Positions 13,165 to 61,598 of a DNA stretch of 64,000 nucleotides are shown piece by piece. Position 1 is the stretch's first letter. Each line of letters opens with the position of its first letter. The notes under the pieces are model-generated. The model worked only from the letters and a program-made list of their open reading frames with translations. It was not told the origin of the DNA and did not search any database. The DNA lies in NCBI RefSeq assembly GCF_022376445.1, contig NW_025954983.1, forward strand, positions 372,001 through 436,000, in the 5' to 3' direction. Made by a program: the position numbers and the translations under genes. The DNA comes from Fomitopsis serialis (Eukaryota; Basidiomycota; Agaricomycetes; Polyporales; Fomitopsidaceae).

Positions 13165-13168
13165 ACGC

Positions 13169-14154
13169 TGTGGGGAGTGCCCCCCACATAGGCCCGGACA
13201 GTATGTATATCCCTTATTTTGAGCTATCTGGTCAGTGCCATTCCCTCCGAGCATATTGACAACCTTCGCTATTCCTTCCGATACCCCATTTCTACTGTAC
13301 TTGATGGACTTCGTGCGATTTCGCATTACTTACCATATATAGCAAGTACCTACTATTAGTCAGCTTCGGCGGCATACAGTGCCACGAAGACTTGTACATA
13401 CCTTAGTTCTCCCCACCTCCGAATCTAGACATCTGCGAGCACAGCTTGTGGGTCCCTCATACATTTGTTGGAGCTGGGAGAGGCTCCCCGGGTTGGTCAA
13501 CAGTGACCTTCTTGGGCAATCAAGGATCTTCGGACGTGCACGGTGCCACGTAATTGAGAAAAGACAAGTCCTACGACTTGGAGGCCAGGACAGCTCGGAA
13601 GATACAGGACCCGGACAGGGACTCGCGGAACGAGTACAGGAGCTTGCGGAACGAGTACGGGAGCCTGCGGAACGAGTACAGAAGCTCGCGGAACGAGTAC
13701 AGGAGCTCTCGGAACGAGTACACTGGCAGGAGCTCGCGGAACGAGCATAGGCGGCTGCAGAACGAGCGTAGGAGCTCGCGGAACGAGCACAGGAACCCGC
13801 GGAACGAGGAAGGCGACCACGGAACGAGAACGAGACAACCGCGGAACGAGTTTAGCGACTTGAAGGGCAGCGACTGCAGAGCCAGAGTGGGGCACCTTCG
13901 GAACGAGAACAAGGACAAGAACGAGACAGAGCTTTAGAGTCCACGGAGCGAGTTGGGAACGGAGTCGTCAGCAAGGCTTGGAGAACCGAGGACAAGGTCA
14001 GTAACCCTGAGGCATCGTTGCGAGATCATTTCTCGGCACATCTCCCCTCCACTCTCAAAACCCCTTCCACCCATGTCACCTCCAATCAGGGAGCAGCGAA
14101 ATGACCCACCCCTCGAACATCGCGCCCGGGGGTACCACACTCCCGAGCTACACA
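13169..14154 (+). repeat. Left LTR, 986 bp
   Basis: It starts TGTGGGGAGTGCC and ends GAGCTACACA. It appears identical to 23728-24712 apart from one C. It includes a 21-bp minisatellite (13624-13850) and a poly-pyrimidine region near 14040-14070. Frames of 115-132 codons inside it are produced by the minisatellite and are not called as genes. Confidence 0.92.
13624..13850 (+). repeat. 21-bp minisatellite in the left LTR
   Basis: About ten degenerate units of the type GCGGAACGAGTACAGGAGCT in tandem. Because 21 is a multiple of three, every frame through the array repeats a heptapeptide, for example LAERVQE in one plus frame and SRNEYRS in another. Confidence 0.85.
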
Positions 14155-14156
14155 AC

Positions 14157-14174
14157 TGGAGCCCACCGCGAGGG
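14157..14174 (+). other. Primer-binding site of the giant-ORF LTR element
   Basis: TGGAGCCCACCGCGAGGG begins two bases after the LTR and starts with the TGG complementary to a tRNA CCA end. The priming tRNA was not identified. The following leader (14175-14426) is in frame with the giant ORF but precedes its first internal ATG. Confidence 0.65.
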
Positions 14175-14426
14175 GTGGTACCCTATTCGTGCTTCTTCCA
14201 CTCCGCCTACAGCTTCGCGTCATCGCATTCACAGCACAGGCAAGCACCCACAATCAAATACATTCACTTCCCACCCATTACGAGCACGTCACATACGGAA
14301 CGAGGGCCCGCGTCACGGTGCGATCGGGACACAGCCAGAGTCACTACTGGGACTGTGTACAGGCGAGCCGACGTTTATTCCCTCCATTACCAGTCCACCA
14401 TTACAGTGCATGCGAAATCAAAGCCA

Positions 14427-17400
14427 ATGCGCGAAGCGGACGTAGTCGCGAGATCGACCGGCACGACGGTACGGTTCAGGTCTATCATGGAGTCGGCGAC
14501 TGGCGGTCTCGGAGACGACAGCATGTACGCACTCGACGGCCTCTTCACGGCCTCAGAATCCGCAACTCAGACCTACGAGCAAGCCACGGGACGCGCGACT
14601 GGGACCTTCGAGCCAGGTATGGCACATGAAGGCGACGATCATCTCGCGATGCACACACTCCGAGTCGTCGCAAGCACCATTATCGCCCAATCCACGGAGA
14701 TGCGGAACCATGGCGTTCACGGGACTCGACCGGCCACGCGCACGAGCATTGCCGCAGACGGACAAGGACGGGAGACGACGACACGCATACAGGAGCGGGT
14801 TCTTGTGCGTACGGGCGGCGACTTACTAGTAGTCGAGGACACCTCTCGTGGTACTGGCAGGGCAGCCGACTTGGACGCCCACGTCACCGTACGCTCGCAT
14901 GTCCACCAAGGCAGCTCACTCACACTTCGCAACTTCTGGAGTGGAGTAGCAAGCCTTACGGCGAGGAAACACGACGGAGCTACCCAGCAGGAGAGCCTCA
15001 CCATGACGACGAGACCCGGGGCGAACGCGAGCAACCGCGGATTCAGCATTCGCGAGCAACCGCTTGGATTTGGAGGCACACGCAGAGGTGTAACTGCCTG
15101 TTGGCGAGGGCGACACGCGATGGATAGGGGAGGTAGGCAGCAGGCGTACATGGGTAATGCGAGCTCTATGACACGTATACCTACGGACACGTCGGGCAGC
15201 AGTCCACATCGACTCGACGAGTTCTTCCTTGAGATATCGGGGGTCACAGCAAGGATGTTCGAGCGAGACGATGAGCCTGTGGGAGATGGACTCGCTAGGA
15301 TCACGGCCACGCGGTTCAGTGACGCAATACCTTCGGACACGACTGTTAGTCCCGCGAACCCGGAGCAAGCGACGGCGCACCAGTACGGCAGGTCGGAAGG
15401 AGTTGCAGCAGTGAGCCGAGGACAGGACGAGCAATCACCTCCGCAAACGTTACCGCGAGCCGGAGTCTGTCAAGTGAACGTCAGCCTTAGGTCAGGACAC
15501 AAGAGCCAGGGCGAAGGTTCAACTGGCAGATCTTGGAGTCCAGCGAGTAACGAAGCACGCGGCCACGCGATTCAAGGAACAGGGCCAACGAGCGAGAGCA
15601 TCGAATACGAGGGTGCGCGCGAGCGAGAGGGGCGTCCGCGGGAGGCGAGCGAACAGATGCCATTGGCCAAGGTGCAGACCACGGGGGGGACGTACACGAC
15701 AGACCACCGTGAGTCCAAGGTGCACCGCCACGGCGCTGAGACGGAGGAGCTCGGGAAGCTGCCGGCGGCGCCGAGACGAGTCTTGATGGTCGAGGACGAT
15801 CACCCGTGGCTCAGGGAGCGAACTGGAACGGAGACACGAGCATCAGGACAGGCGCGAGATGTGATTACGAAGGTTAGACTCACCGGCGGAATCACTACGA
15901 GGAGCGACGCATGTCTTGCAGAGGTCGGTTACCGACACAGGGCCCCGTTCGGCGAGATACTGGCCTCGATACGAAGAGATCGAGAAGGAACGGGTATGGC
16001 GTACTTAGTCGACCAAGTGCGGACCTACAAGGATTCGAGTGTAAGCGATCTCGAACGAGAAATCGACGAGAGGATAGGGATTCCTGGATGCGGCACAGGC
16101 GGGGCGTCGAGCGAGCAGGATGAGCTCGGACGACGAGCGAGAGACTCACGGCGGGCGGGGGTTGCATGCAGGAACCTAGCGGCAACGGGTAGTGCGCACG
16201 GCCGGGATTTCGATGGCGAGCTAGGCCGTGACGAGAAGAGGATGGCGGCTGGTGAGGCTTCAGGCGCAGCCATTGGCGCGTGCAGCGAGGAACAGAAGGG
16301 GGTCGGCGGGTTCTTGGCAGTGGCAAGACGAGTTTTCAAACCCGGAAACGACTGGCTGCGGCTATACCAAGCTGCACAGGTGTCACAGGCGACCAGGCGG
16401 GTCGCAACAACAGCGTTAAAGGACAGACGTACCGGCAGAAGTTCAATGACAAGCTGCCCACCTTCCTCGCAAGCCGAAGACTCCATATCAATTCCAGGAG
16501 GCACACCATGCATGCAGACGAAGGCGACGCACGCATCACACATCTGGAAAGATACCGCAAGGCGGGATGGCGCGACGGCGGAAGAGCTTGATGCGTGCAT
16601 GCAGCAGGAGCGACAGGCGGAGGAAGCGCAGGGGTTCAGACAGGTTGTGACTCGAGCGACAGAGACAACGCTCACCTATGGGATTTCCTCCACCGACTAC
16701 GCGTGCCTGGGACGTTCACTTCCCTCGGCGAGATCTGGCATGCGTGTGCAGGAGCACGCGATGAAGGCGTTCGAGCTCGGAGCCGTTGACGACGCGCCGC
16801 TTTCGGGTACGCAGCGGAGCGTTGGACGCGAGGGAGGCTGGGAGTGTGCTGGTCAGGCGAGGATCCAACAAGGCACCATGGTCGCGATGGATGAGGGCTT
16901 GCGCGAGGATCGCAAGCGGCTGCAGGCAGAGTCGGTGGGGAGAGGACTCCGGCGAGAGAAGATCGCTCAAGCGCCCGAACTGTGGTCAGCACAGCCTACT
17001 GGCGCCTCGCTGGTCGCTCAGGTCGAAGATTCGGCGCGCGCATTCTCACGGCTTGTGTGTCTCCTCAATACTAGTAGCTTGTCAGCGCACGACTCTATCT
17101 GGCGAAACGCGAGAGGCCCTGCGGCAGTTCATGGCCGCGAGACCGTAAGATCGGAAGGAACCGCCTACGAGGCGTACAGGTGGGAGCACCACGACCAGAG
17201 GGTCCATACCTTAAGTAAAGCAGACACTCGAGACGAGCGATCCAGCGATGCGCAGGATGCTAGTGGTTCCAGGCCGGAACGTGCAAACGAGTGGGAACGG
17301 TTCGAGCGTAACAGAGCGGCGAGACGGACAGTTCTATGCGCAAGTGAGTCACCTGAACAGTTACGACTGAACGAATGCGACGGAGCAGGTCTGGGCATCG

Positions 17401-20400
17401 ATATGCGCGCACCAAGGGGCCAGCCGGCGGACTCGGAAACCGAAAACTCAACATCGGAAGGGACACTCGCTCACGTCGGGCCTGTTGCAACGCAAGAACC
17501 GGCGAGACAGACATGCGGGAATCGCGACTCACAGCTAAAGGAATACACGGACCCGAACTCAGCCCGCTCTCAAGTCTCGCTAAGCCAGTGCATTGCGTCG
17601 GAACGAACGGCATGCGGAAGCAGAAAGGATAACATCGAGAGCCTAGCGACGGACATGGAATGGACGAGGATCGAGCACGGCGCGTTACGGAAGAAACAAG
17701 ACGAGTTAAGGAAGACGGCGAGACGGAGCATTGCCGGGCGGGATGGTCCCTCGGAGGGAAGGAAGCTGGACGCGGAGGGAGCGCCAACGTTCGGACGAGT
17801 CTCAACGGAGGCTGGAATCACCGATAAAGCCCCCACGACCAGTCGCTTACTTGCGGTACCGTTGTTCTCGCAGACCTGGGCTATCGCATTGGCGCGGAAG
17901 GAGACGGTACACGTAGGCGAAGCTTCAGTGGGAAGAACGTCCATTCCGGAGCGATCTAAGGAGGAGGAGGAAGGCAGCTGCCGTCCACAAGCATCTGAAG
18001 CGGGAGAGGGTCAATATGATGTGGAGTTAGGGCCTGCTTTGGACACGATGGGACGTATCGAGGACGCGCATAGAGGAATTCAAGCTCGAGTTACGCGGAG
18101 GGCCGGAGGAAAGAGCATCTATTACGAGGCTACCTACGACAGACGGACGAGCCGAACCATCACGCCCACGGGAGAGTCAAGGCACGCCCGCTCGGAAGTC
18201 ACAGCGAGCCAGCATGTTCTGTCTCTCCAGGCGGGACGCGAGTACGGGAGCGAGAACATGGAGAGCCGAGCAGTTGCGGATACGGCACGGGCGAGCTCAG
18301 AGATGGAGGTGCGCCGGAGGAAAGAGCGAGAACGAGACGGACCTCTGGATGCATCAAGACGACAAGTTGCGGATTCAGACGGGCAAAGGGAGCTATGGGA
18401 GGAACGTATGGAGGAGATGCGGACGTCCGGATGCAGGTCGACACTCGAGATCGCCTGGCGATGCGCGAAACAACTAGCAGGTAGCGGAGACCACGTCACG
18501 GAAGGAACGGCAGGCGAACCTCGGTATCGAGAGCGTGCGGACGACGACAGCGGCGCGGGACGGAGGGAGCACGAGAAGGTTGGAGGGCTCGTGGTGGCCA
18601 TGAGACGAGTTTCCAGACGAGCCGGTAGGCGGGACGTCCAGCCACAGGACCCAGACGAGGCGCACACGCACGGGCAGCTGGCCAGAGCGAGGGAGGAGAA
18701 CAGACTCGCGAGCAGATTCCTTACGGTGAATGGTTCGATGCGCATGTACGAGCTGCAGGGGGCGAGGTACAAGACTGCCGACAGCAAGCGTGCCGAGGTC
18801 CGGGACGTCGACGACAGTCAGTCGGAGGAGGCGGAGCTAGGGAAGAGAGGACCCGGGGTGACGACCGTTCAAGTGCATGGGTCAAGGCCGCCGCAGTCCT
18901 CTAACACCGGCGTGCTAGTCTCTCGAGCCACGGAGGGGTTACGTGCTATCTCACACGTCCTGAGGTCAAACTGGACCACTCATCTACCGAGCTTGTTCGC
19001 GTACAACGCAGTCTGGCGACACGGGCTACAGGAAGCGACGGGCAGTAGTCCAGCGATTGGGGAAGGTGGATGTCACATGGGGGGACCAGTACAGCTCCGA
19101 GCCAACGAGGAGCGGAGGGAGAAGACTCAGTGGCGAATTAAGCGGAACGAAGCCTCGAGACTAGCGGACGGACGGACGGAGGCTGGCGAGGGTCAGAACC
19201 TACCGAAGGCGAAGGCCAATAGATCAGCAGACGATGAAGAGCGATCGAGGGCAAGCGAGGTACAGCGGAGCGATCGAGCAGCGATCGGTCGCAAGACGAG
19301 TGTAACGGTAGAGGCCCGCGCTGAGGGGGAGGGAAGCCTGCGTACGCAACGCACCGCGTCCAAGCATAGGAAGACGGGAAACTCCACCGGGACTCAAGTT
19401 CAAGGGCGATTCGAGAGATTCGAGACACTCTTGCGAAACGATGAGGCGAGGGCTGGGAAGGAGCAGCCAGTCGAAACGCAAGCCAGCCAGCGAGGGAGGC
19501 GTAGGTCCCAGATCACGACGCATGCGTGCGTCAGGAGCCGGCCGAGCAAGCACACGAGAAAGGACACGACGGGGGGAGAGGGTAGTCTGAGGAACGAGCC
19601 TGGCAACGGCGAGACTGACACGAGTACCCAAGAGATGCAAGGGGTGGAGCCGAGCAGCGAGCAAGCCGAGTCCGAAGAGGAAGGCCGTGCATCTCAGGAA
19701 GGGGAGCCAGCGACGAGTCCAGACCAGGGATGGGCGAGCACTGCGGTTGGACGATCCGAGGGTGGCGAGCAGCACTTACCGAGCGCGACGAAGATCAGGG
19801 GTCGAGTCAAGGAAGATATGGATGCGACAGGAAAGGACAAGCCGAGGAATGTACGGAGGTATGTCGTTCTGCAGCGAAGCGAGGTCGAGAGGTGCGGGGG
19901 AGACTGTCCGAGTCACAAGGAACGCGAGCAGGGAGTAGACGGAAACCTCGCCAGAGATATTTCCTATGGTGGAAATGTGGAGTGCTGGGGCGCGAGCTGG
20001 GAGTCACGTTTAGGCGAGATGACTCACGAGCGTATCGATATCTTACGGGCGAGGGGGCTAACTAGCTCAGGAACATCGCTGCGAAGGCGTGGCGAAGACG
20101 GACCGACTGGGGAAGCTGCAACTGACGAACCATTGGCGGCGGATGGCCCTGCACGGGCGAACGGCGAGACGGATCAGGGCGCGAGCCTGCTGCTGAGTGA
20201 AGGGGAGCCTAAGCCCGCGGGTGAAAGCGCCGAACCCAGCGAGATGCAGGAGGTGGCGAGACAACGGGTTCAAGTAAGGACTTCGATACGCACGGCAGGA
20301 GAGAACGGACGTACCGCGTGTAGGAAAGCAGGCGCGCGTACGAAGGATAGCGATGGCGAGGTGGTTCCGCAGGAGGACTTAGTCGAGCCTGGGGTCTGCC

Positions 20401-23400
20401 AGTCATATGGGCTGAAAGCGAACCTCGAGGACGTACGCGCATGCGAGACAGAGCAGGGCGAGAGCTTGGAGCCAAGTAGAGGAAAGCCGGGGCCCGAGAT
20501 GCGAGGCCCAGAGCCAAGTGACGAGCAACCCAAAAGTAAGCGGGAGGACCCCGTACGCCAGGGAGCAGGTGGTGGACTCGCATGCTGCAAGACGAGGCTG
20601 ATTGTGAGCCTGAAGCCGAGTAAGGAGGAGGTGACTGACGAGAGGAGTAGCGAGAAGGACACGAGGTACGCCCTACGGCTGGAAGCCGAGCCGGGAATGT
20701 TGTCGTGCGCAAAGACCAAGGATGGACAGGCCGACCGAGAGGAAACAGGCGACCAATCAAACGGGGCTCGCATGGACCGAACAGACGTACCTCCGGAATG
20801 CTCCGCGGCGGGCGAGTTGGCGCAGGTGCAGGACAATACGGACCAGGGCGCGAGCTTCAGAGCGGCAGAATCACAGGGTTTAGCCGAGGCGTCAGAACGC
20901 ATATCGGGAGAGAGCAGACGTGTCGAGTGCGAGAGAGAGGGCGAGTGCACGGAAGACGGGGATGGGGCGACAGTTCTACCGGGGAACTCGCTCGGGACCA
21001 GCAAGGTAGCCGAAGGACTGGTGGACTCACCGGACATACCAAGGCGACGACACGTATCAGTGGCGAGGGATGTCGCGCTGGCTATCGCAGAGTCGGACGG
21101 GCAAGAACCGGCACTGCAGGGAGGATTCGCCGAAGTTAGCCAGCCAGATGGACTCCCGGGAGATGGGACAGACCAATCGTTGCAACGAAGTGCAGGGGGG
21201 GAGCACGTACGAGCTCACGGCGGTGTGGACCAGCTCGCGAGCTTACAGCCGAGTAATGGGGAGCCCGAGTTGGCCGATGAACACGCAGGGCTTAGGGAGA
21301 CGCTGGAGACAGCGAGACCACAGGACCGAGTGGGGACGGTGACGGGAAAGCCAGGAGAGAACGGACGTGCAGAGTGGGAGGGAATGGGCGAGCGAGCGCA
21401 GGACGGCGATTTTGAGGCCGTGTCGCAGGTCAACCTGGTCGAGATAAGCCAGCCGAGCGGATTTGTAGCAAACTGCGAATACGCACCGTGCCAACAATGG
21501 ATCGGAGGAAGGCGTGGACGAGTGTGCAGCGAGGCGAACCGGGGCGCGAGCTTAAAGCCGGATAAGAGGAAGCCTGAGGACGGATGGGCTGGCGATGGCG
21601 AGACTCAGGGAGAGAGGAGGCGAGACTGGGAAGCATCAGGCGGAACATCGTCAGGGAGGCGGAGGCAACACGGACGCACCAGACGTGAGGAGACAGGCAA
21701 GTACACCGAGGAGAGTGGTAACGAAGAGGTCTGGGAAGTCGGGATCACCGAGGCCAGCCGGTCAACCGACAAGTCCATGGACGTACTGGACATATTGTGG
21801 CATCGAAGCCTGGCGGAGGAATCGCCACGGAAGCGGAGGGATGATGGACGCGGTGGATTCGGTGTTACTGGCGGATACGAGCAGGATGGCGGGTGTGAAG
21901 AGGTGCTACAAATGGAATTCGTCGAGATCAGTGAGGCCAGGGCGTTCACGGACCCAGCAAACATACCGGGCCAAGGACGCGAGATGGGTGCCACGGTGGA
22001 CCAGCACGCGAGTGTCAAGCCGAGTATGGGGGAGCGGGCTGATGAACGTACCGGCCGTGACGAGACATGGAGGGCGTCGAGATGGATGGCGGTCGTGGAA
22101 GGGTTGTCGAGCGCACAAAAGCACACCACGCGCCCCGAGCATGAATGGACAAGCGGTCAGGAAATCGGACGCTTCGCGGAATCAGTCAATGTACCGTGGC
22201 AAGGACGCACGACAAGTGGGCTCGGGCACGAGCAGGGCAGCGAGACGAAGCAGGACGGGAGCTTCGAGCTGAGTAAGGGGGACTGCGACAAGGTCATCCA
22301 CCAGCGTAGGGCACAGATGAACCGGGATCGTGGCCAGGAATCTGGTCAGTGGGACACGAAGCGAGGACGTGGCGAACGAGCGATATCTACGCACATGGAA
22401 CAGTGGGATGTGACGACCGAACAACCGAGCTGCACACGGGAGGCCGCGGATTGTACAGTGCAAGCCAGCAAGACCAGTGACTCGCCGGATGAACCGTGGC
22501 AGGGACCGCGAGCAGAATGTGGCGTAGATGATCCAAGCTACGAGCCGGAGTCTGCGAGTCAAAGCGTACCGGAGGAAGGCTGGCTGCTAGGAGACTTTGG
22601 CGAGTTCGACACCGATATGCCGGAGCAGACACCTGAGGACGACCTCGTTGCGTGTTGGCATATTGCGGAGGATGGCCGTCGATTATGGGGGCACGTTCCG
22701 CGGGCCCAGGCTGAGGAGGCTCTGCGTTGGGTCAATCAGACCGACGGATGGATAGCGGAAGACGACGCACGCCGGGTGATTGATGAGGAAACCCTCCGGA
22801 GCGAGTGGCTAGCTCGGTACCTTGCGTACGAGCGCGGACAACTTGGGCCTGACGCGGTGATCTCAAGCGATCAGAGGAGAGAATACTCGAGGCTGAACGA
22901 GATGGGCCAGCTCGAGAACCTACATACGCATGGCCAGACGGACCAGGAGCGACCACATAGTGCAGAACCCAGTAAGGAGGGACCTCAGCGAGGTACCCGA
23001 CCCGTTGGCGGGGCGCAGAGGACGATTGACTCGGACACAGAAGAACCAGGACTCGGAGGGTACCTACTTGTAGAGGTCGCGGAGCCCAAGATCCCGGAGG
23101 AGGCGCACGAGGACGAGTTGGTCAGCTGCTGTCACCTTGACGAGTGCGGGCAGTGGGTCGTCGAGTCTCTTCCGCGCGATGAGGCGAAGAAGGCGGTGGC
23201 GGAGGCAGATCGGCGGTTGCGCGCGGGGTTCTGGCGCAGGTTAGGTGCGACTCGAGGTGACAATACGCAAAACCCAGCGGAACGAGGGCAACCACAGAGC
23301 GTGGATCCGAGGATGGGGAAGCCTCGGAGAGGAGCTGGACCTGGTGGTCAGCCAGTCAGCGTGATCACGCGGAAGAACCTGGGCTGCGAGAGTGCCTACT

Positions 23401-23453
23401 TGTGGAGTCAGCCGAGGTCAAGATGTCGGAGAAGGCGGGCGATGATGAGCTGA
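14427..23453 (+). CDS. Giant repeat-rich protein of an LTR retrotransposon, about 3,008 aa, function unknown
   Basis: The frame is open without a stop for about 9 kb. The chosen start is the first in-frame ATG after the primer site; the frame itself extends upstream into the LTR to 13953. Composition is strongly biased to Arg, Gly, Glu, Ser, Thr and Ala, with few hydrophobic runs, so much of it should be disordered. Three segments share a GG-x-L/V-x-x-x-RRV or LPAAPRRV pattern (near 15750, 16300 and 18580). From about 20180 to 22280 at least eight degenerate units recur around GAS-L-x-PS-x-GEPE and EVV-x-Q-x-LVEISQP. The C-terminus has modules with EDELVSCCHLDECGQW. No zinc knuckle, aspartic protease DTG, RT DD, RNase H or integrase signature was seen. 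It may be a structural (gag-like) or cargo protein. Confidence 0.7.
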   Translation: MREADVVARSTGTTVRFRSIMESATGGLGDDSMYALDGLFTASESATQTYEQATGRATGTFEPGMAHEGDDHLAMHTLRVVASTIIAQSTEMRNHGVHGTRPATRTSIAADGQGRETTTRIQERVLVRTGGDLLVVEDTSRGTGRAADLDAHVTVRSHVHQGSSLTLRNFWSGVASLTARKHDGATQQESLTMTTRPGANASNRGFSIREQPLGFGGTRRGVTACWRGRHAMDRGGRQQAYMGNASSMTRIPTDTSGSSPHRLDEFFLEISGVTARMFERDDEPVGDGLARITATRFSDAIPSDTTVSPANPEQATAHQYGRSEGVAAVSRGQDEQSPPQTLPRAGVCQVNVSLRSGHKSQGEGSTGRSWSPASNEARGHAIQGTGPTSESIEYEGAREREGRPREASEQMPLAKVQTTGGTYTTDHRESKVHRHGAETEELGKLPAAPRRVLMVEDDHPWLRERTGTETRASGQARDVITKVRLTGGITTRSDACLAEVGYRHRAPFGEILASIRRDREGTGMAYLVDQVRTYKDSSVSDLEREIDERIGIPGCGTGGASSEQDELGRRARDSRRAGVACRNLAATGSAHGRDFDGELGRDEKRMAAGEASGAAIGACSEEQKGVGGFLAVARRVFKPGNDWLRLYQAAQVSQATRRVATTALKDRRTGRSSMTSCPPSSQAEDSISIPGGTPCMQTKATHASHIWKDTARRDGATAEELDACMQQERQAEEAQGFRQVVTRATETTLTYGISSTDYACLGRSLPSARSGMRVQEHAMKAFELGAVDDAPLSGTQRSVGREGGWECAGQARIQQGTMVAMDEGLREDRKRLQAESVGRGLRREKIAQAPELWSAQPTGASLVAQVEDSARAFSRLVCLLNTSSLSAHDSIWRNARGPAAVHGRETVRSEGTAYEAYRWEHHDQRVHTLSKADTRDERSSDAQDASGSRPERANEWERFERNRAARRTVLCASESPEQLRLNECDGAGLGIDMRAPRGQPADSETENSTSEGTLAHVGPVATQEPARQTCGNRDSQLKEYTDPNSARSQVSLSQCIASERTACGSRKDNIESLATDMEWTRIEHGALRKKQDELRKTARRSIAGRDGPSEGRKLDAEGAPTFGRVSTEAGITDKAPTTSRLLAVPLFSQTWAIALARKETVHVGEASVGRTSIPERSKEEEEGSCRPQASEAGEGQYDVELGPALDTMGRIEDAHRGIQARVTRRAGGKSIYYEATYDRRTSRTITPTGESRHARSEVTASQHVLSLQAGREYGSENMESRAVADTARASSEMEVRRRKERERDGPLDASRRQVADSDGQRELWEERMEEMRTSGCRSTLEIAWRCAKQLAGSGDHVTEGTAGEPRYRERADDDSGAGRREHEKVGGLVVAMRRVSRRAGRRDVQPQDPDEAHTHGQLARAREENRLASRFLTVNGSMRMYELQGARYKTADSKRAEVRDVDDSQSEEAELGKRGPGVTTVQVHGSRPPQSSNTGVLVSRATEGLRAISHVLRSNWTTHLPSLFAYNAVWRHGLQEATGSSPAIGEGGCHMGGPVQLRANEERREKTQWRIKRNEASRLADGRTEAGEGQNLPKAKANRSADDEERSRASEVQRSDRAAIGRKTSVTVEARAEGEGSLRTQRTASKHRKTGNSTGTQVQGRFERFETLLRNDEARAGKEQPVETQASQRGRRRSQITTHACVRSRPSKHTRKDTTGGEGSLRNEPGNGETDTSTQEMQGVEPSSEQAESEEEGRASQEGEPATSPDQGWASTAVGRSEGGEQHLPSATKIRGRVKEDMDATGKDKPRNVRRYVVLQRSEVERCGGDCPSHKEREQGVDGNLARDISYGGNVECWGASWESRLGEMTHERIDILRARGLTSSGTSLRRRGEDGPTGEAATDEPLAADGPARANGETDQGASLLLSEGEPKPAGESAEPSEMQEVARQRVQVRTSIRTAGENGRTACRKAGARTKDSDGEVVPQEDLVEPGVCQSYGLKANLEDVRACETEQGESLEPSRGKPGPEMRGPEPSDEQPKSKREDPVRQGAGGGLACCKTRLIVSLKPSKEEVTDERSSEKDTRYALRLEAEPGMLSCAKTKDGQADREETGDQSNGARMDRTDVPPECSAAGELAQVQDNTDQGASFRAAESQGLAEASERISGESRRVECEREGECTEDGDGATVLPGNSLGTSKVAEGLVDSPDIPRRRHVSVARDVALAIAESDGQEPALQGGFAEVSQPDGLPGDGTDQSLQRSAGGEHVRAHGGVDQLASLQPSNGEPELADEHAGLRETLETARPQDRVGTVTGKPGENGRAEWEGMGERAQDGDFEAVSQVNLVEISQPSGFVANCEYAPCQQWIGGRRGRVCSEANRGASLKPDKRKPEDGWAGDGETQGERRRDWEASGGTSSGRRRQHGRTRREETGKYTEESGNEEVWEVGITEASRSTDKSMDVLDILWHRSLAEESPRKRRDDGRGGFGVTGGYEQDGGCEEVLQMEFVEISEARAFTDPANIPGQGREMGATVDQHASVKPSMGERADERTGRDETWRASRWMAVVEGLSSAQKHTTRPEHEWTSGQEIGRFAESVNVPWQGRTTSGLGHEQGSETKQDGSFELSKGDCDKVIHQRRAQMNRDRGQESGQWDTKRGRGERAISTHMEQWDVTTEQPSCTREAADCTVQASKTSDSPDEPWQGPRAECGVDDPSYEPESASQSVPEEGWLLGDFGEFDTDMPEQTPEDDLVACWHIAEDGRRLWGHVPRAQAEEALRWVNQTDGWIAEDDARRVIDEETLRSEWLARYLAYERGQLGPDAVISSDQRREYSRLNEMGQLENLHTHGQTDQERPHSAEPSKEGPQRGTRPVGGAQRTIDSDTEEPGLGGYLLVEVAEPKIPEEAHEDELVSCCHLDECGQWVVESLPRDEAKKAVAEADRRLRAGFWRRLGATRGDNTQNPAERGQPQSVDPRMGKPRRGAGPGGQPVSVITRKNLGCESAYLWSQPRSRCRRRRAMMS

Positions 23454-23662
23454 TCAGCCGCTGCCATCTGGACGAGAACGGGCACTGGCCGTATGCGGAG
23501 GCGGAGAGGGCTCGGAGTGGCGAGGCGAATGGGGACTGCGGCTGGCTCAATGAGGACAAAGATCGCGTGCGAGGTCTTAGCGCAACTCGGGGATGCAGCA
23601 CAGAAGTTAATCGAGCGGATGGACTCGCGTCATTCATGTCGCAATGGATCGCTCTTGGTTAG
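23402..23662 (+). CDS. Probable true C-terminus of the giant protein, in a shifted frame
   Basis: This frame reads LLVESAEVKM, then DDELISRCHLDENGHW, plainly a third copy of the module in the preceding frame (LLVEVAEPKI ... EDELVSCCHLDECGQW). The switch falls at about 23391, where one additional base (for example AGG instead of AG) would keep the frame open to the TAG at 23660-23662. With that base the protein would be about 3,078 residues. Whether the missing base is real or a consensus error is open. Confidence 0.6.
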   Translation: MESAEVKMSEKAGDDELISRCHLDENGHWPYAEAERARSGEANGDCGWLNEDKDRVRGLSATRGCSTEVNRADGLASFMSQWIALG

Positions 23663-23717
23663 GCAGTGTTGCCGTCGCGGCGGGGAGTGGGTGACCGGGG
23701 ACGGTCACAATTTGAGT

Positions 23718-23727
23718 AAGGGGGAGA
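23718..23727 (+). other. Polypurine tract of the giant-ORF LTR element
   Basis: AAGGGGGAGA lies directly before the right LTR, where plus-strand synthesis would be primed. Confidence 0.75.
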
Positions 23728-24712
23728 TGTGGGGAGTGCCCCCACATAGGCCCGGACAGTATGTATATCCCTTATTTTGAGCTATCTGGTCAGTGCCATT
23801 CCCTCCGAGCATATTGACAACCTTCGCTATTCCTTCCGATACCCCATTTCTACTGTACTTGATGGACTTCGTGCGATTTCGCATTACTTACCATATATAG
23901 CAAGTACCTACTATTAGTCAGCTTCGGCGGCATACAGTGCCACGAAGACTTGTACATACCTTAGTTCTCCCCACCTCCGAATCTAGACATCTGCGAGCAC
24001 AGCTTGTGGGTCCCTCATACATTTGTTGGAGCTGGGAGAGGCTCCCCGGGTTGGTCAACAGTGACCTTCTTGGGCAATCAAGGATCTTCGGACGTGCACG
24101 GTGCCACGTAATTGAGAAAAGACAAGTCCTACGACTTGGAGGCCAGGACAGCTCGGAAGATACAGGACCCGGACAGGGACTCGCGGAACGAGTACAGGAG
24201 CTTGCGGAACGAGTACGGGAGCCTGCGGAACGAGTACAGAAGCTCGCGGAACGAGTACAGGAGCTCTCGGAACGAGTACACTGGCAGGAGCTCGCGGAAC
24301 GAGCATAGGCGGCTGCAGAACGAGCGTAGGAGCTCGCGGAACGAGCACAGGAACCCGCGGAACGAGGAAGGCGACCACGGAACGAGAACGAGACAACCGC
24401 GGAACGAGTTTAGCGACTTGAAGGGCAGCGACTGCAGAGCCAGAGTGGGGCACCTTCGGAACGAGAACAAGGACAAGAACGAGACAGAGCTTTAGAGTCC
24501 ACGGAGCGAGTTGGGAACGGAGTCGTCAGCAAGGCTTGGAGAACCGAGGACAAGGTCAGTAACCCTGAGGCATCGTTGCGAGATCATTTCTCGGCACATC
24601 TCCCCTCCACTCTCAAAACCCCTTCCACCCATGTCACCTCCAATCAGGGAGCAGCGAAATGACCCACCCCTCGAACATCGCGCCCGGGGGTACCACACTC
24701 CCGAGCTACACA
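23728..24712 (+). repeat. Right LTR, 985 bp
   Basis: Direct copy of the left LTR. It is preceded by the polypurine tract and followed by the duplicated ACGC. Confidence 0.92.
24182..24408 (+). repeat. 21-bp minisatellite in the right LTR
   Basis: Same array as at 13624-13850, with the same unit order and variants, consistent with recent LTR copying by reverse transcription. Confidence 0.85.
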
Positions 24713-24716
24713 ACGC

Positions 24717-26875: not shown

Positions 26876-29800
26876 ATGAAGGCTCCAAAAACTGTGTACA
26901 CCTGTGGAATCGCAGGCTGCAATGCAACGAAGCGAACTGTTCAAGCGCTCAACTCGCACAAGACGCAGGCTCACCGAGATATTCTGCGTGCGCGAGACAG
27001 GCGACTTGCCGCCGACATCGAAAAAGCCCATCAGCAAGCCGCATCATCAGTGTCTGCTCTCCCAGCGGATGCGGACACAAGACATACCCCATTATCATCT
27101 TCCGGTCAAGGCAACTCGGCGTCGAACCATGACCTGCCACACGTCGAGATAGAGGAGCCCATTGTCTTGGACCCTACCCCTGACGAGCTAGATGATCCTG
27201 CGGCAGGCCCGGGAGCGGCCACCGAGTCAGGAGCCATGTCAAGTGGCCCTAGTCCCTCGACACGGAAACCCAAGTCAGTGACAGTCGAGGATGTCCCCGA
27301 CGAAGATGACGGCCTACCTCAGCATCTCTGGGAACAGCACTTCCCTGGAGATGTTGCATCAATCATTAGCCAGGCAGATACCGAATTCGACAACCTGCTC
27401 GCGCAACAGAAGGCCGACAATGCTGTTCCGTGGCAACCCTTCGAGACGCAGGAAGAATGGCAGTTAGCGCGGTGGCTCCTGACATCCGGGCTGTCACAGG
27501 CTGCAATAGACGACTATCTTAACCTAGAGATCGTGAGTATTTGCTATTGACTCACCTCGGAATTCAAAGTGACAGAGTGAATACCTAGACAAAGCACCGA
27601 ACAAAGCCATCATTTGGCAGCAAGCGCGAATTCTTCAAGCGCATTGATGCTCTTCCAAAGGGCCCCGGGTGGATACTCGAAACATGGGAGGTCACTGGGA
27701 ATGTTCTTGATGAAGACGGGAAACCACTTACCGAGGAGGTCGAGCTTTGGCGACGCCGTCCTGTCGAGTGTATCAAGGAGTTAATTGGAAATCCAGCATT
27801 CGATGGTTTGATCCAAAACGCACCAAAGAGGCAGTTCAAAGACTCAGATGGACGCTCGCGTGTCATCGACGAATGCAATACGGCCGACTGGTGGTGGGAG
27901 ATCCAGAAGCACCTGCCTCCGGGTGCGACAGTTGCACCTCTCATTATCTCGTCAGATAAGACACAACTGTCGCAGTTCAGTGGTGACAAACAGGCTTACC
28001 CGGTGTATCTGAGCATCGGTAACATCGACAAATCGACAAGGCGACAACCATCTGCGGGCGCAACCGTGCTGCTCGGGTATCTGCCGACATCGAAGCTCGA
28101 GTGCTTCACCAAGAAGGACGATCGGCGCAAGATCGAAGGTTACCGACTCTTTCATGCCTGTATGCGCTCGATGCTACATCCGTTGATCTCGGCTGGCTTG
28201 ACGGGCGTCGAGATGGTCTGCGCGGACCGTTGCATTCGTCGAGTGTATCCGATTGTCGCCGCGTACGTTGCAGACCATCCGGAACAATGTCTCGTCGCAT
28301 GCTGTCAACAGAACCATTGTCCAAAATGTACAGTCAGTCCGAATACTCGGGGCGATCTCGTCAACTCACTGTTACGGGATCCGGACGAAACAATCCACGC
28401 TATGGCCGGTGAATCCCATGGCGAACAGCCGACGGAATTCAAGGAGTGGGGCCTGCACCTCATTGATCCGTTTTGGCGGGAGCTACCGCACTGCAACATC
28501 TTTCAGTGCATCACGCCCGACTTACTGCATCAGCTCCACAAAGGGGTCTTCAAGGATCATCTTGTTGATTGGGCAACCGCTGCAATGGTCGGTGGTGAAG
28601 ACGAGGGTGACCGTCGTTTCCGTGCCATGACCGGTCATCCAGACTTGAGATGGTTCAAGAAGGGCATCTCTACGATCACCCAGTGGACCGGGACAGAATA
28701 TAAGCACATGGAGAAGATTTTTCTGGGTGTACTCACGGGTGCTGTTACCGACACGGGTATCCTGCGATCTGTCCGTGCGGTCCTCGACTTCATATATCTC
28801 GCCCACTTCCAGGTTCACACGACCGAATCTCTGCTGCAGCTCGAATCTGCATTAGATGCTTTCCATGCAAACAAGGATGCATTCGTCAGGATGGGAATAC
28901 GTACGCACTTCAATATTCCAAAGCTCCACTCGATGATCCACTACGGCCTTTCGATTCGCCTCCTCGGAACTTGCGACGGCTTCAACACGGAGAATTCGGA
29001 GCGCTTGCATATCGATTACGCAAAACGGGCCTACAGAGCAAGCAGCAAGAAAGACTACGTACAGCAAATGACAAAGTGGCTCACTCGGCAAGAGTCAATC
29101 CGCAAATTCACGCGATACTTGCGTTGGCTCGGAAAAGATGCCCCGGAAGGAAGGCCGACAGGAGTAGGACGGGATGATGGGCTGGATGAAGACAAGGCGG
29201 CTGATGTCAGCATGTCGTCGAAGCACGGACACATCGATCACGAACTCCCTGTGGCGCCAGATTCCGCCGGACAGGATGTTGCGGACGACCCAAGTGCACG
29301 CCGCACGTCAAAGACTCCGGCGTACCCAAACACGAGGGTAGGGACGTTGATGTCAGATTTTGGCTGCACGGATTTTATTCCACGGCTGGAGGAGTATCTC
29401 CGGCGTACCACGAGAGATGGTACACTGCCTCTCGCCGCGAGGAATATCACGGAATTGACACGGTTCGATGCCTACAAGAACGTCAAATTCTCCTTACCGT
29501 CATTGCGTCAGGTGTCGAAGGAAGGTTTACGCACCAGAGACAAAGTACGTGCCACACGCGCAACACCTGCGTCTGGGCCCAAGAAAGCCAAGGCAGCGTG
29601 CTTTGATACAATCCTCGCGCGTGAAGTATCTCTGCACGAGGGGGGTGGTGATCCACAGAACCCCTTGAGGGTGAGTCAATACTAGTCGTCCGCTCCCGCC
29701 CTCGCATCCGAGTCGAAACTGACGAAATGCTGTGTTTATCATAAGGTCTTCGTGTTGCGCGTGTTCGGTCGATTTTCCGCGTCCCTGAAAGCTACGGCCA

Positions 29801-56617: not shown

Positions 56618-57642
56618 CTAGGAAACGCTCGCCCCCGAGATATACTCAGCCTCCTCGTCCATCTCCTCGTTTGCGGATGACCACTGAGCATTCCGCGGCC
56701 GACGCGACCACACGGTAATGAACAGCACACGCTTGAGCTTCCTGTTGTAGAAGAAGTAGTGGCAGCTCCACAGCAGAGGACCGCGACGCCGCATGCGAAC
56801 GCGGGTCGGTGAGGGTATCCGGAAGACGAACTCCTCGCTGGAGGTCGTGCGCCACTGCTGGGCGACATTCGCCCATCCGCAGGTATCCGTGCGAGGGCTG
56901 GCCGCCCGCCTCATCGACGTCATAAGGGTCGGCGTCGAAGAGCAGCTCTTCCTCGGAGGATGCCGAGTCCTCCTCGCCACAGAGGCGACGTCATCATCGT
57001 CGTCGTCGTAGTCGTTGGCATGCGGGTCGAACTCGACCATGCTTGGTTCGTACGAGTAGACCTCGCACTCGGCGACGCCTATTGCGTCGTCGATTGTGCG
57101 GTAGAGGAAGGGGTGCGTGCCCGAGACGGCCTTGGAAGGTGCGTTCGGGCTCTGTCGCATGTAGTCCATGGGCGACGAGGACGTCGGCATCGAAGAGGGG
57201 AACATTCCAGGTGCAGAGCGTGGGTAGGAGGAGTAAGCCCGGGGTGCGTGGGTGCCGCGGTAGGTGAGGAGCGCCGTGCTGAGTGAGTTCAGCACGTCTG
57301 CGGGGTCCTCCCGGTGGAAGTCGCTAGGCTTCACGTCTGAGAACTCGTGGTCGGGGTAGGCGACATTGAGCATCGCGATCACGGTGTGGAACGTCTTGCG
57401 CGCGTTGGGGTCAGACATTGGCCCAAACGCGGTCGACTCGTCGAGCGCGATGAAAGACGGTACGGGTGGCGAGTTGGAGACCTCGTCGTTGTATGCGCTC
57501 TCGAGCTGGCGGAAGAGCTTCTTGTCGCGTTTGATGTTCTTGCAGCTGTATGCCTCTACGCGGGTGCGCACAGAACATTCGGCTCCATCGTGGTCGAGGC
57601 GTGCGCAAGGCGGGAGAGGTCAGGTATGTCAATGTACTTCAT
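56618..57642 (-). CDS. MAF1: MAF1, repressor of RNA polymerase III
   Basis: ATG at 57642-57640 starts MKYIDIPDLSRLAHA, the typical MAF1 N-terminus. Then comes EAYSCKNIKRDKKLFRQLES (MAF1 box A), SFIALDESTAFGPMSD, MLNVAYPDHEFSDVKP, an acidic Asp run, and the C-terminal box LLWSCHYFFYNRKLKRVLF. MAF1 represses Pol III transcription when nutrients are low. The frame slips after TTMEP: one extra G (GAGGCC at about 57583) gives MEAECSVRTRVEAYS. The acidic middle (about 56880-56990) shows a slip and its reversal. With these corrections the protein is complete; the box spacing fits the family. Confidence 0.85.
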
Positions 57643-58735: not shown

Positions 58736-59040
58736 CATACACGAAATATAGCGAACCTGAAGAATTAGATTCAGCAATCGACTTTCATGTCACCGGAGAC
58801 ATGCGTGGTTTTGGGACCACCGCAAATGCGGCCTGAATCAAGCCTGAATCCAACCGCAAATTGTGATCGATGAGACCCAATTTTGGGTGAGCAAACATGC
58901 CAGCCTAAATCGTAGATATGGTACGAGGTATGGGCATGCCTCATATCTGATAGCCCAAATGAAGCAAGTTAGCCCGTCGAAAATCAGTAAATCAATTCAA
59001 TTGAGGAGTTTGCGGCGGGCAATCACGCTTCATTCGGGCA

Positions 59041-61598
59041 TGGCATACCCCAAGGCTCCCCCATATCCCCCATCCTATCCATCCTCTACGCCGCCGAACT
59101 CCTGGAAATGTTCCAAGAGAAAGCCCGCACCCATGTCGAAGCAATGACCGCCAAGCTCAAGCTCCCCGACAACCCCTGCGAAACCAGCCTGATCATGTTC
59201 ATCGACGACGGGAAGATCTACGTCTCGTCAGAGTCCCTCGACACAAACATCCGGATACTCACCCTGGCATACAACGACGTAGAGGCCTGGCTGACGAGCG
59301 TCGGGCTGTCGCCCGACCTCGTTAAACGAGAACTCATGCATTACTCGATGAAACAACGCAAACCAAACGACTCACCGTCAATCACCCTACCAGGAGCAAA
59401 CGGCATACGCATAACCATCCAGGCAACACACACGACCAAGTGGCTCGGAGTCCACCTGGACCGCCGCCTAAACTTTGACCACCACGTTAAACAGATGGCT
59501 GGACGAGCGGAGAAGACCGTAAACGGCATGGGGATGCTCGCAAACACGGTACGAGGGCTCTCCCAAGAACACCTGAGGACGCTATACACCGCATGCGTAC
59601 GTCCAATACTGACATACGCGTGCCCGGCCTGGTGGAGAGGCAAGAAGGCACACGAACACGCACTGGAGAAGGTACAGAACCGAGCACTGAGACTCATCTG
59701 TGCCGCCTTCAAGACGACGAAAATCGTGGCGATGGAAATCGAGGCCGCTATCCTACCCATCCGACACCACTTAGAACTCACGAAAGACCGCGCCGCCATA
59801 AGATTCAACAAACTCAGCGCCCACAGCCCGATCATCCGACGCCTCCCAGAGGGATGGAACATACTACCAACCTCGACACCAGCTCCCCCGCGTCCCACTC
59901 ACCGCAAAGTGACAGCCCGCCGCAAGACACCCCCTGCCTCCACTCGACTCTGCAACCTTGCGAAGAGATCGGACCCCAGCGACGAGCGCATAGTGCCGCT
60001 CGCCGTACCGCCATGGAAGAAGACCCCGGCCGACTTTGGAGGCCGACTGGTGATCACGCCGGCAGTCAAAGGAGTGACGAAGAACGAGGCAATGAAGATG
60101 CACAACGGAAAGTTAAGCAAACTTAAACGGTCACGAGAAAATGCGATGATCTACTCTGATGGCTCCCTACTCACAGAGAACGGCCAACGCCGTGCCGGCG
60201 CAGGCTTTGTCGTTGCCCAGCAGAACAAGATTCTATTCAAGAGGATAATAGCCATGAGCAGGAAATCGGAGGTCTACGACGCGGAGATGCTAGGACTAGC
60301 AGAGGCGGCCGTCGACATGGAAGAATACCTCCAGTGCGACGACGCTCGAGACATCAGCCACCTACACTTCTTCGCCGACAACACCGCAGCGATCTCAGCC
60401 ATCTTCGAGGCGAAACCAGGCCCCTCGCAGATCCACTCGATAACCTTCAGGAATTTCGCCATACGATTCCTGGAAGCAAGCCCCAAACATCGAATCACAG
60501 TGGCGTGGACGCCAGGCCACAAGGGCATCGTCGGAAACGAAATCGCAGACGTACTAGCAAAGAAAGCTACGGAGGAAGAAGGCCCGAACCAGTACGCGAC
60601 ACGAGCCAACGCATTGCGCAGAGCGAAAGAACGTGCAACGAACGCGTGGATAGACGAGTGGAAAAAGACACACCCAACAGGCCACTTCGCAACAGCGAAC
60701 CGTCTACCACCACAAACCAAACCAAGAAAACCCTTCCTAACTCTTCCACGAGAGTTATTCGGACGTACGCTCCAATGCCGAACGGGACACTGCTTCATAG
60801 GCGAGTACTACAAGTCGTTTGTACCTACTGAACCGGTCGACTGCCCATGCGGCGACCCATACCAGTCACGCCGCCACATCCTCCAGGACTGCCCACGATA
60901 CGAGAAGCACCGACACATCCTACGCGCGGTGAGCACGACGATCGACTTGCCGACCATCCTCGGCACAGAGGAGGGGATAGACGCCCTTGCGAAGTTCATC
61001 GGAAAAAGCAACGCGTTTACGAAGACGGGAGACCCGCCAGGCGGATGGCGCGAAGAAGACCAGGACCAGGAAGCGAGAGAAGAAGATGCGGAAGACGAAG
61101 ACGACGAAGACCCGAGCGGAGAGGAAGACCAGGACCAGGACGGAGGAGAGGCGGAGAACGACGAGGGCGAAGAAGACTAAACGGTACTAGCTGCACGGCG
61201 AAGTACCGTCCCCACACCCTACCCAACACCACCATCGACACATCGTGCACTAGGGGGCAATCCCGGCTTGCGCCCCTAGGAGAAAGACACCGGAGTGCCG
61301 AGATATGGACCGTATGCTTTCCCCTCATTTCTCGCTTCTTCATTATTCTCTATCTTTATTACCATGCGTGTTACGTCCCGACCTCAGACCACACCATTAG
61401 ACCCCGTCTCACAACCCGATTAGATTGCCTGCCCATTACTATACACACATCACGTCTATAGACTACTATACCACCTCGAACGGGACGCAGGTCTGGGTGG
61501 CGCGTTTTAACGCCCACATTTGTACAGGCCGGCGTCCGCCGCGTCTTAGCACGTTGTTTGCTTGTTGCGGTTAATAAATGCTGAGTTCATCATCATCA
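59041..61598 (+). mobile_element. 5'-truncated LINE (Tad1/I-like non-LTR retrotransposon)
   Basis: A 16-bp target duplication, ACGCTTCATTCGGGCA, flanks the insert (59025-59040 and 61599-61614). The element begins inside the reverse transcriptase domain, so the 5' end was lost during target-primed reverse transcription. It ends not in poly(A) but in a short TCA repeat (61587-61598). The 3' untranslated part is 61181-61598. It is inserted in the MITE. Confidence 0.88.
59042..61180 (+). CDS. LINE ORF2 fragment: reverse transcriptase C-terminal part, RNase H, zinc knuckle
   Basis: The open frame starts at the truncation point with GIPQGSPISPILSILYAAEL (RT motif B) and soon reaches the catalytic FIDDG. 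WLGVHLDRRLNF and the thumb-like region follow. RNase H occupies the C-terminal half: YSDGSLL (Asp), YDAEMLGLAEAA (Glu), FADNTAA (Asp) and VAWTPGHKGIVGNEIADVLA (His and final Asp). After it is a knuckle, CPCGDPYQSRRHILQDC, and a very acidic Glu/Asp/Gln tail ending at 61180. The endonuclease and the N-terminal half of RT are missing, so it cannot transpose. The 713-codon frame has no interruption, which suggests a young copy. Confidence 0.88.
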   Translation, partial: GIPQGSPISPILSILYAAELLEMFQEKARTHVEAMTAKLKLPDNPCETSLIMFIDDGKIYVSSESLDTNIRILTLAYNDVEAWLTSVGLSPDLVKRELMHYSMKQRKPNDSPSITLPGANGIRITIQATHTTKWLGVHLDRRLNFDHHVKQMAGRAEKTVNGMGMLANTVRGLSQEHLRTLYTACVRPILTYACPAWWRGKKAHEHALEKVQNRALRLICAAFKTTKIVAMEIEAAILPIRHHLELTKDRAAIRFNKLSAHSPIIRRLPEGWNILPTSTPAPPRPTHRKVTARRKTPPASTRLCNLAKRSDPSDERIVPLAVPPWKKTPADFGGRLVITPAVKGVTKNEAMKMHNGKLSKLKRSRENAMIYSDGSLLTENGQRRAGAGFVVAQQNKILFKRIIAMSRKSEVYDAEMLGLAEAAVDMEEYLQCDDARDISHLHFFADNTAAISAIFEAKPGPSQIHSITFRNFAIRFLEASPKHRITVAWTPGHKGIVGNEIADVLAKKATEEEGPNQYATRANALRRAKERATNAWIDEWKKTHPTGHFATANRLPPQTKPRKPFLTLPRELFGRTLQCRTGHCFIGEYYKSFVPTEPVDCPCGDPYQSRRHILQDCPRYEKHRHILRAVSTTIDLPTILGTEEGIDALAKFIGKSNAFTKTGDPPGGWREEDQDQEAREEDAEDEDDEDPSGEEDQDQDGGEAENDEGEED

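Follow-up and report, generated by a model that had tools for sequence, protein, structure and literature searches.

A pol-less LTR retrotransposon of Fomitopsis serialis with a giant reading frame purged of stop codons

We have analyzed an LTR retrotransposon of the basidiomycete Fomitopsis serialis in which the purging of stop codons and the constraint on amino acids, usually coupled, separate over some 8 kb of a replicating element. It lies in a stretch of 64,000 nucleotides, referred to below as the window. Selection keeps a giant frame across its interior open; roughly the first 2,800 codons of this frame accept amino acid replacements at close to the neutral rate, and the last 300 or so are clearly constrained as protein. 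The frame appears to be selected mainly for being translatable, so that a C-terminal domain is made, or the RNA is spared decay, or both. Tentatively, we regard the element as a non-autonomous Ty3/gypsy-type retrotransposon.

Structure of the element and its giant frame

The features of the element are listed in Table 1. Its two LTRs differ by 0 mismatches and 1 gap over 988 alignment columns (13169-14156 against 23728-24714); the alignment has this length because two bases past the LTR ends agree as well. Near-identical LTRs with TG...CA ends, a short target site duplication, a tRNA primer site and a polypurine tract, the traits that define LTR retrotransposons, are all found. A first-pass annotation of the same DNA had deduced a recent retrotransposition from the LTRs, the ACGC duplication, the primer site and the polypurine tract, and this is confirmed: the window element is a recent LTR retrotransposon of F. 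serialis.

Table 1. Features of the window element (positions in the window)
Feature	Position	Strand	Remarks
Target site duplication, left copy	13165..13168	.	ACGC
5' LTR	13169..14154	+	986 nt; TG...CA ends
Tandem units within 5' LTR	13615-13808	+	nine units of ~21 nt
First in-frame ATG, within LTR	14073..14075	+	conserved
Giant open frame	14073..23453	+	3126 codons from ATG; 3166 from TTG 13953
Stop-purged, weakly constrained part	14073..22472	+	about 2,800 codons; omega 0.83, neutral shuffle 0.98
Interior between LTRs	14155-23727		9.57 kb
Primer binding site, inside open frame	14157..14174	+	18 nt; complement of tRNA 3' end, read as tRNA-Lys(CTT)
Constrained C-terminal part	22473..23366	+	omega 0.38; predicted beta-hairpin plus helix
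Repeat units	near 22572-22826; 23016-23258	+	in frame
Last repeat unit and conserved end FMSQWIALG-stop	23363..23662 (unit to 23602)	+	other frame in window copy
RNA hairpin just 5' of polypurine tract	23691..23708	+	7 bp, 4-nt loop; common to gypsy relatives
Polypurine tract region	23715..23727	+	adjoins 3' LTR
3' LTR	23728..24712	+	985 nt
Target site duplication, right copy	24713..24716	.	ACGC

The interior has 1 stop in 3,190 codons in the open plus-strand frame and 57-98 stops in each of the five other frames, which bears out the earlier observation of a plus-strand frame open for more than 9 kb. That frame had been described as a single ORF of about 3,000 codons inside the element. The plus-strand frame is real, but its limits need revision: it is open from the ATG at 14073, inside the 5' LTR, and therefore passes through the primer site, and the stop at 23451-23453 is peculiar to the window copy, in which the last unit of the family (23363-23662) sits in another frame. 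Taken to the conserved end of the family, the frame extends from the LTR to about 65 nt short of the 3' LTR, and its first 50 residues show a mean identity of 84% across ten copies.

The predicted product is charged, has few hydrophobic residues, and falls on the disordered side of a charge-hydropathy plot in 245 of 308 windows. Over codons 1-1000 the hydrophobic share is somewhat higher in the true frame (0.21) than in the wrong frames (0.17-0.18); from codon 1001 on, wrong-frame translations are about as poor in hydrophobic residues, so that the composition may reflect DNA bias. Of the protein, described earlier as low-complexity and built of repeats, only the C-terminal part showed clear internal repeats.

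The family in the F. serialis genome

The LTR of the window element has matches at 41 genomic places, and part of the giant frame gave 40 matches (38 candidates). Exact copies of the primer-site word in the form proper to the family were located at 15 places, and C44 and C161 carry it with GGGTG; all but one of these 17 places (C789) adjoin an LTR match. The span from the primer site to the 3' motif ranges from 8.1 to 12.5 kb in 13 copies and lies within 8.1-9.6 kb in 9 of them. Other copies have open stretches of 3,003 (C9), 2,849 (C465) and 2,000 (C75) codons, with amino acid identities of 59-68%. Identity between copies changes abruptly along the frame (copies L009-L028), and we take these switches to mean that copies have recombined. 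Over residues 1,201-1,550, for instance, C334 has 90-98% identity to the window copy, and the other copies have 20-80%. The patchwork suggests that recombination may have occurred by template switching between co-packaged RNAs. Two fragments (C256:38412-38548 and C188:16235-16370) are 98-99% identical to window positions 13964-14100, the end part of the LTR; no further LTR match is listed alongside them, and they are possibly pieces captured in other elements.

The 4-mer at the 5' flank is NCGN in all 16 elements read (the window element, ten copies and five more), a sample that may hold duplicates, as longer flank words are common to C368 and C161 and to C179, C307 and C465. The motif was confirmed on both sides in six elements, the window element and five copies with 4-nt repeats; elsewhere in the window, NCGN accounts for 7.9% of all 4-mers. 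Such CG-centred 4-nt targets suggest an integrase with a CpG-centred preference.

Purging of stop codons

Ten copies, at 19-24% divergence, were aligned to the window frame with blastn, blind to reading frames. All codon counts refer to these ten fetched copies, C307, C368, C161, C801, C706, C742 and more having been left out. The homologous frame contains 10 stops in 21,699 codons; the two other frames contain 526 in 21,687 and 684 in 21,686. When the same substitutions were redistributed over sites with the same base (20 shuffles per copy and window), the expectation for the homologous frame was about 338 stops. A comparison of all 55 pairs of the 11 sequences gave 58 stops against 1,254 (one shuffle per pair; the pairs are not independent). 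Of 713 indels in the frame, 328 are multiples of three; of 379 in the LTR, 98 are (Fisher p 6e-11). With 1-nt indels excluded the difference between frame and LTR has a p of 7e-5. The depletion of stops and the excess of in-frame indels lead us to conclude that the giant frame is maintained by selection, as the first-pass annotation had supposed from the window copy. The counter-evidence that it had named beforehand, other copies riddled with stops at neutral rates, was looked for in these ten copies, and the opposite was found. Decay after insertion would explain only about 3% of the divergence (10/338).

Constraint on amino acids

Omega was estimated with a codon model that takes transition bias into account (kappa-aware), using the frame-blind alignments and shuffle controls (six shuffles). 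NG86 dN/dS values from protein-guided alignments (0.58-0.66) were replaced by these estimates because transition bias lowers NG86 values. Codons 1-2800 have an omega of 0.83, against 0.98 in the shuffles. Blocks of 400 codons in this part range from 0.69 to 0.98 (shuffles 0.91-1.02); for codons 801-1200 omega is 0.98 against a shuffled 1.02, a ratio of 0.96. Of the 14 windows of 200 codons up to codon 2,800, 7 have an omega significantly different from 1; at the far end of the frame, in the last such window (codons 3001-3200), no copy was covered over more than half. Three well-populated pairs of copies gave 0.74-0.84 with nulls of 0.95-0.98, and the least diverged pair, C75 and C401 (120 substitutions), gave 0.59 against 1.00 (sd 0.21). 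Given these deviations, the long part is not wholly unconstrained. The window copy and C334 compared over codons 1201-1560, with 34 substitutions only, gave 0.92 against 1.13 (sd 0.57).

The kind of replacement accepted in codons 1-2800 is close to that in the shuffles: the mean change is 2.66 against 2.71 in hydropathy and 0.46 against 0.45 in charge, and 18% of changes in both are to hydrophobic residues. Within this part, changes in hydropathy are milder than shuffled in codons 401-800 (2.37 vs 2.65).

The last 300 or so codons are under clear constraint at the protein level, with an omega of 0.38 against a shuffled 1.01 for codons 2801-3100. Over the 55 pairs, which are not independent, the median omega is 0.81 (shuffled 0.97); in the C-terminal part it is 0.45 (shuffled 0.96). 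The individual C-terminal values rest on about 170-290 codons each and range from 0.00 to 0.80. One pair (C465 and C334) has a C-terminal omega of 0.70, which is not under its shuffle (0.59).

The gag and pol genes of relatives serve as internal yardsticks for this decoupling of stops and constraint. The gag part of relatives that share the primer site has an omega of 0.20-0.21 in four comparisons at 22-23% divergence, and the pol of C160 against that of C460 gave 0.03 and 0.04 (two comparisons). Of the 11 comparisons, 3 had no aligned codons and two fell outside the quoted range, one with 190 codons and an omega of 0.00, the other with 1.4% divergence and an omega of 0.40. The low values in gag and pol indicate that the method detects constraint where it is present; in two wrong frames the estimator gave 1.19 each.

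The C-terminal repeat domain

Nine C-terminal repeat units share four invariant columns. Each of 10 copies out of 10 has the conserved end, FMSQWIALG, which in the window lies about 65 nt ahead of the 3' LTR. The last unit is in the same frame as a separate preceding unit in 8 of the 9 copies that have the latter. In C465 it is the first and last units that have a common frame; C401 and the window copy lack such agreement. In three further copies, C124, C256 and C334, there is a frame shift elsewhere among the C-terminal units. AlphaFold predicts a beta-hairpin followed by a helix for the repeat, with a mean pLDDT of 67.6 and core blocks at 75-89; a longer model, of 289 residues, is poor (mean pLDDT 41). 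Foldseek against the PDB returned 86 matches to the repeat at E <= 10 and none at E <= 0.001, and a profile search of PDB sequences returned none at E <= 1. A known fold was considered for the repeat and dropped, the core model being moderate and no PDB match worth naming.

Searches for pol, gag and homologues

The giant frame was compared in three pieces with Pfam, where no family matched at E <= 1, and with NCBIfam, where none matched at 0.1; no gag or CCHC/zinc-knuckle model matched in either. Ten other long ORFs of the interior likewise have no match to a pol model; the single sub-threshold match, to LEA_6 (E 0.079), is meaningless. In genome-wide searches, none of the 147 RVT_1 matches listed (150 of 159 candidates scored) or of the 104 RVT_2 matches listed (105 of 105 candidates scored) lies within the window element or any of the ten copies that were fetched. 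The absence of pol noted by eye in the first reading therefore stands for these models, and the profile search for a degenerate RT or integrase, run on the frame and the ten other ORFs, detected none. Protease, RT, RNase H and integrase, the complement of an autonomous Ty3/gypsy element, were not found in the window element with the models used.

Protein searches of the giant frame against a database of 5.8 billion sequences gave 2, 4 and 1 matches, all uncharacterised and all from F. serialis. Only about 8,000 best candidates were scored in the first two of these searches, so distant relatives could be missed. In the open literature, as far as titles and the openings of abstracts go, we found no element of this kind described.

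Cis ends, primer tRNA and candidate helpers

The primer site is exactly complementary to the 3' end, CCA added, of a tRNA that is present at ten exact genomic sites. With introns allowed, ARAGORN called Lys(CTT) at 2 of 6 loci and Cys, Cys, Ala and Glu at the others; without introns it called Leu, Val, Val and, at three loci, nothing. The sequences on either side of the presumed intron are the same at these loci, and for this reason all six are read as tRNA-Lys(CTT) with an intron, the introns having probably been misplaced by ARAGORN. Self-priming was rejected, the listed matches to the LTR being just 7 nt long. A conserved stem at the primer site was rejected as well: there is a perfect 9-nt inverted repeat here, of ordinary stability (z -0.79), and no pair is changed on both sides among 11 distinct sequences.

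The primer site is common to unrelated LTR families and occurs at 75 places with up to 3 mismatches, against 2 for a reversed control; a 30-nt word covering the hairpin and polypurine tract occurs at 81 places, against 0 at the same tolerance. The Ty3/gypsy elements C163 (L047), C179 (L045) and C342 (L046) and the gag-only C2 and C101 have the primer site, hairpin and polypurine tract of the window element; among them, only C163 also shares its LTR tips. Unlike the window element, these relatives have a gag with a CCHC-like motif (by eye) and, except for C2 and C101, a pol; only stray short matches link them to the giant frame. In 5 of 6 sequences the hairpin has G-C, C-G or T-A as its outer pair; these bases do not pair in one internal copy of L034, and one copy of L045 has a broken second pair. 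The hairpin folds better than 200 of 200 shuffles in the window element and 185 of 200 in L047.

The first-pass annotation had proposed looking for a pol-bearing relative with matching ends, and C163 is such an element. At the 3' junction (hairpin, polypurine tract and LTR start) it matches the window element at 82% over 66 nt, and at the 5' junction (LTR end and primer site) at 92% over 37 nt. Between the two junctions there are only stray matches of at most 28 nt (E 0.028 or worse), and the body of its LTR has no similarity to the window LTR. Pfam matches in L047 include RNase H (3.5e-16) and the integrase zinc-binding domain (3.3e-18), with the integrase core below the cut-off; its RT and CCHC gag motif were read by eye. 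L047 is itself frameshifted and therefore marks a helper family rather than a working helper; all helper-family copies that were read are broken. From these comparisons, the window element and its gag-pol gypsy relatives appear to have only their cis ends in common, no other shared part having been found. Gag-pol Ty3/gypsy elements of the same genome are thus the probable helpers, and the common ends provide a concrete candidate for a parasite-helper system in a basidiomycete. C2 and C101, the two gypsy kin with both flanks read, have NCGN duplications too; the occurrence of NCGN in both the family and these kin would be compatible with one shared integrase.

C101 (L034:1358-4807) and C2 (L033) represent a second family, of shorter elements, whose primer site and 3' motif are those of the window element. 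C101 has a single gag-type ORF of 1,150 aa, in which a CCHC-like motif and a hydrophobic, membrane-like stretch are seen by eye; it has no Pfam match. The C101/C2 family has two polypurine motifs some 0.8 kb from each other; in C179 and C342 the distance between the two is about 3.6 kb.

Interpretation

The reading that we place first, at a little short of an even chance, is that the window element is a non-autonomous Ty3/gypsy-type LTR retrotransposon which is moved in trans and whose C-terminal domain is the working part of its protein. The RT and integrase of a helper would copy and insert it. The full-length genomic RNA would double as mRNA, probably with translation starting at the ATG in U5 and ending about 65 nt short of the 3' LTR, and ribosomes would have to cross the entire RNA to reach the C-terminal repeat domain, the part acting as protein. 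This domain might tie the nascent chain, and hence its own RNA, to the helper particle. The leading 2,800 codons would then be a mostly disordered linker, in which sequence is nearly irrelevant and stops are forbidden. Some observations stand against such an arrangement, among them the residual constraint on the long part, the C465 and C334 pair, the domain model that is confident only in its core, and the broken state of the helper-family copies. If nothing but the C-terminal domain mattered, short in-frame deletions would be expected to take over, yet spans remain at 8.1-12.5 kb; and the young window copy moved recently despite having its last repeat unit out of frame, a frameshift that may postdate insertion or be an assembly error. 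The first-pass annotation had raised the possibility of an undescribed class of retroelement. Because the element shares its cis ends with gag-pol elements, a place among the non-autonomous elements of Ty3/gypsy type suits it better than an entirely new class.

A second reading, which we consider distinctly less probable, holds that the protein is largely irrelevant and that selection acts on whether the frame can be translated and not on its content: passage of ribosomes would itself protect or license the genomic RNA, which, free of stops, would escape nonsense-mediated decay or a related check before packaging. This agrees with a depletion of stops by 95-97% (some twenty- to thirtyfold) alongside near-neutral replacement, with the ratio for codons 801-1200 and the shuffle-like hydropathy and charge changes in codons 1-2800, and with a frame that covers the interior from the LTR almost to the 3' LTR. 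It does not account for the C-terminal part being conserved as protein, and it is mainly for this constraint that we rank it below the C-terminal-domain reading. In addition, half of the windows before the C-terminal part have an omega a little, yet significantly, under 1, the changes in codons 401-800 are milder than shuffled, and other non-autonomous LTR elements (LARDs) cope with interiors described as not necessarily coding (PMC6431247).

It is more doubtful still that the chain of some 3,100 residues serves as bulk, as a giant disordered structural protein, for example a gag-like or condensate-forming scaffold, that does not tolerate truncation and tolerates changes in sequence. The frame does begin at the position of gag, the lengths of 9 of 13 copies fall within 8.1-9.6 kb, and the composition is charged, poor in hydrophobic residues and mostly on the disordered side; wrong frames are similarly poor in hydrophobic residues from codon 1001, and the composition may therefore be a matter of DNA bias. 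This reading is weaker because replacements in codons 1-2800 are no more conservative than in shuffles. Nor was the capsid- or cargo-like protein envisaged in the first-pass annotation borne out: no gag or zinc-knuckle match was found, and about 2,800 codons are near-neutral, unlike the far more constrained gag of the relatives.

That the element is a degenerate autonomous one, with a gag-pol too diverged for the models or a decayed frame without function, is very improbable: its ends do match those of gag-pol elements and several copies were frameshifted in the search of the tail, but no pol matched in the frames tested although Pfam detects pol domains in the relatives, and decay would add stops at the neutral rate where stops are purged instead, so that this reading is largely refuted.

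Relation to known elements

The coding frame of yeast Ty1 starts within the LTR and reads through the primer site, as does the frame of the window element; Ty1 carries gag and pol and belongs to the Copia group, in contrast to the window element with no detectable pol. A LARD is characterized by an interior without coding capacity under selection, which does not describe an element whose stops are purged. In large retrotransposon derivatives (LARDs) of plants, as described in PMC6431247, DNA trapped between the LTRs replaces much of the coding sequence, relocation is non-autonomous and in trans, and the interior is 'not necessarily coding'. The window element is similar in its long pol-less interior between LTRs and its presumed movement in trans, and differs in a frame of about 3,100 codons held open by selection. 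TR-GAG elements (terminal-repeat retrotransposons with a GAG domain), as outlined in PMC8704663, have one ORF between LTRs, no pol and a presumed helper of similar sequence; a copy from Arabidopsis encodes a GAG of 562 aa. The window element also has a single ORF, no pol and a presumed helper, but its frame is more than 5 times longer than this GAG and mostly near-neutral. A TR-GAG element is defined by a single ORF with a GAG domain; here there is one ORF, and no gag or CCHC match at E <= 1. The window element thus resembles both LARD and TR-GAG elements and departs from each in one defining point.

The case is a warning that conservation of a protein does not necessarily follow from conservation of a long open frame in a transposon. 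With this family, one can test directly whether selection acts on translation through a genomic RNA as such.

Surroundings of the element in the window

Just 3' of the element, window positions 27808-29685 hold the ORF of a Plavaka transposase (PF18759, E 1e-104); DNA similarity of about 66-75% is seen in stretches near C101:473-474 kb. A Maf1-like host gene (PF09174) lies on the minus strand at 56618-57571. At 59108-61180 there is a large ORF with an RNase H match, which, with an RVT_1 match at 59024-59353, looks like a fragment of a non-LTR retrotransposon.
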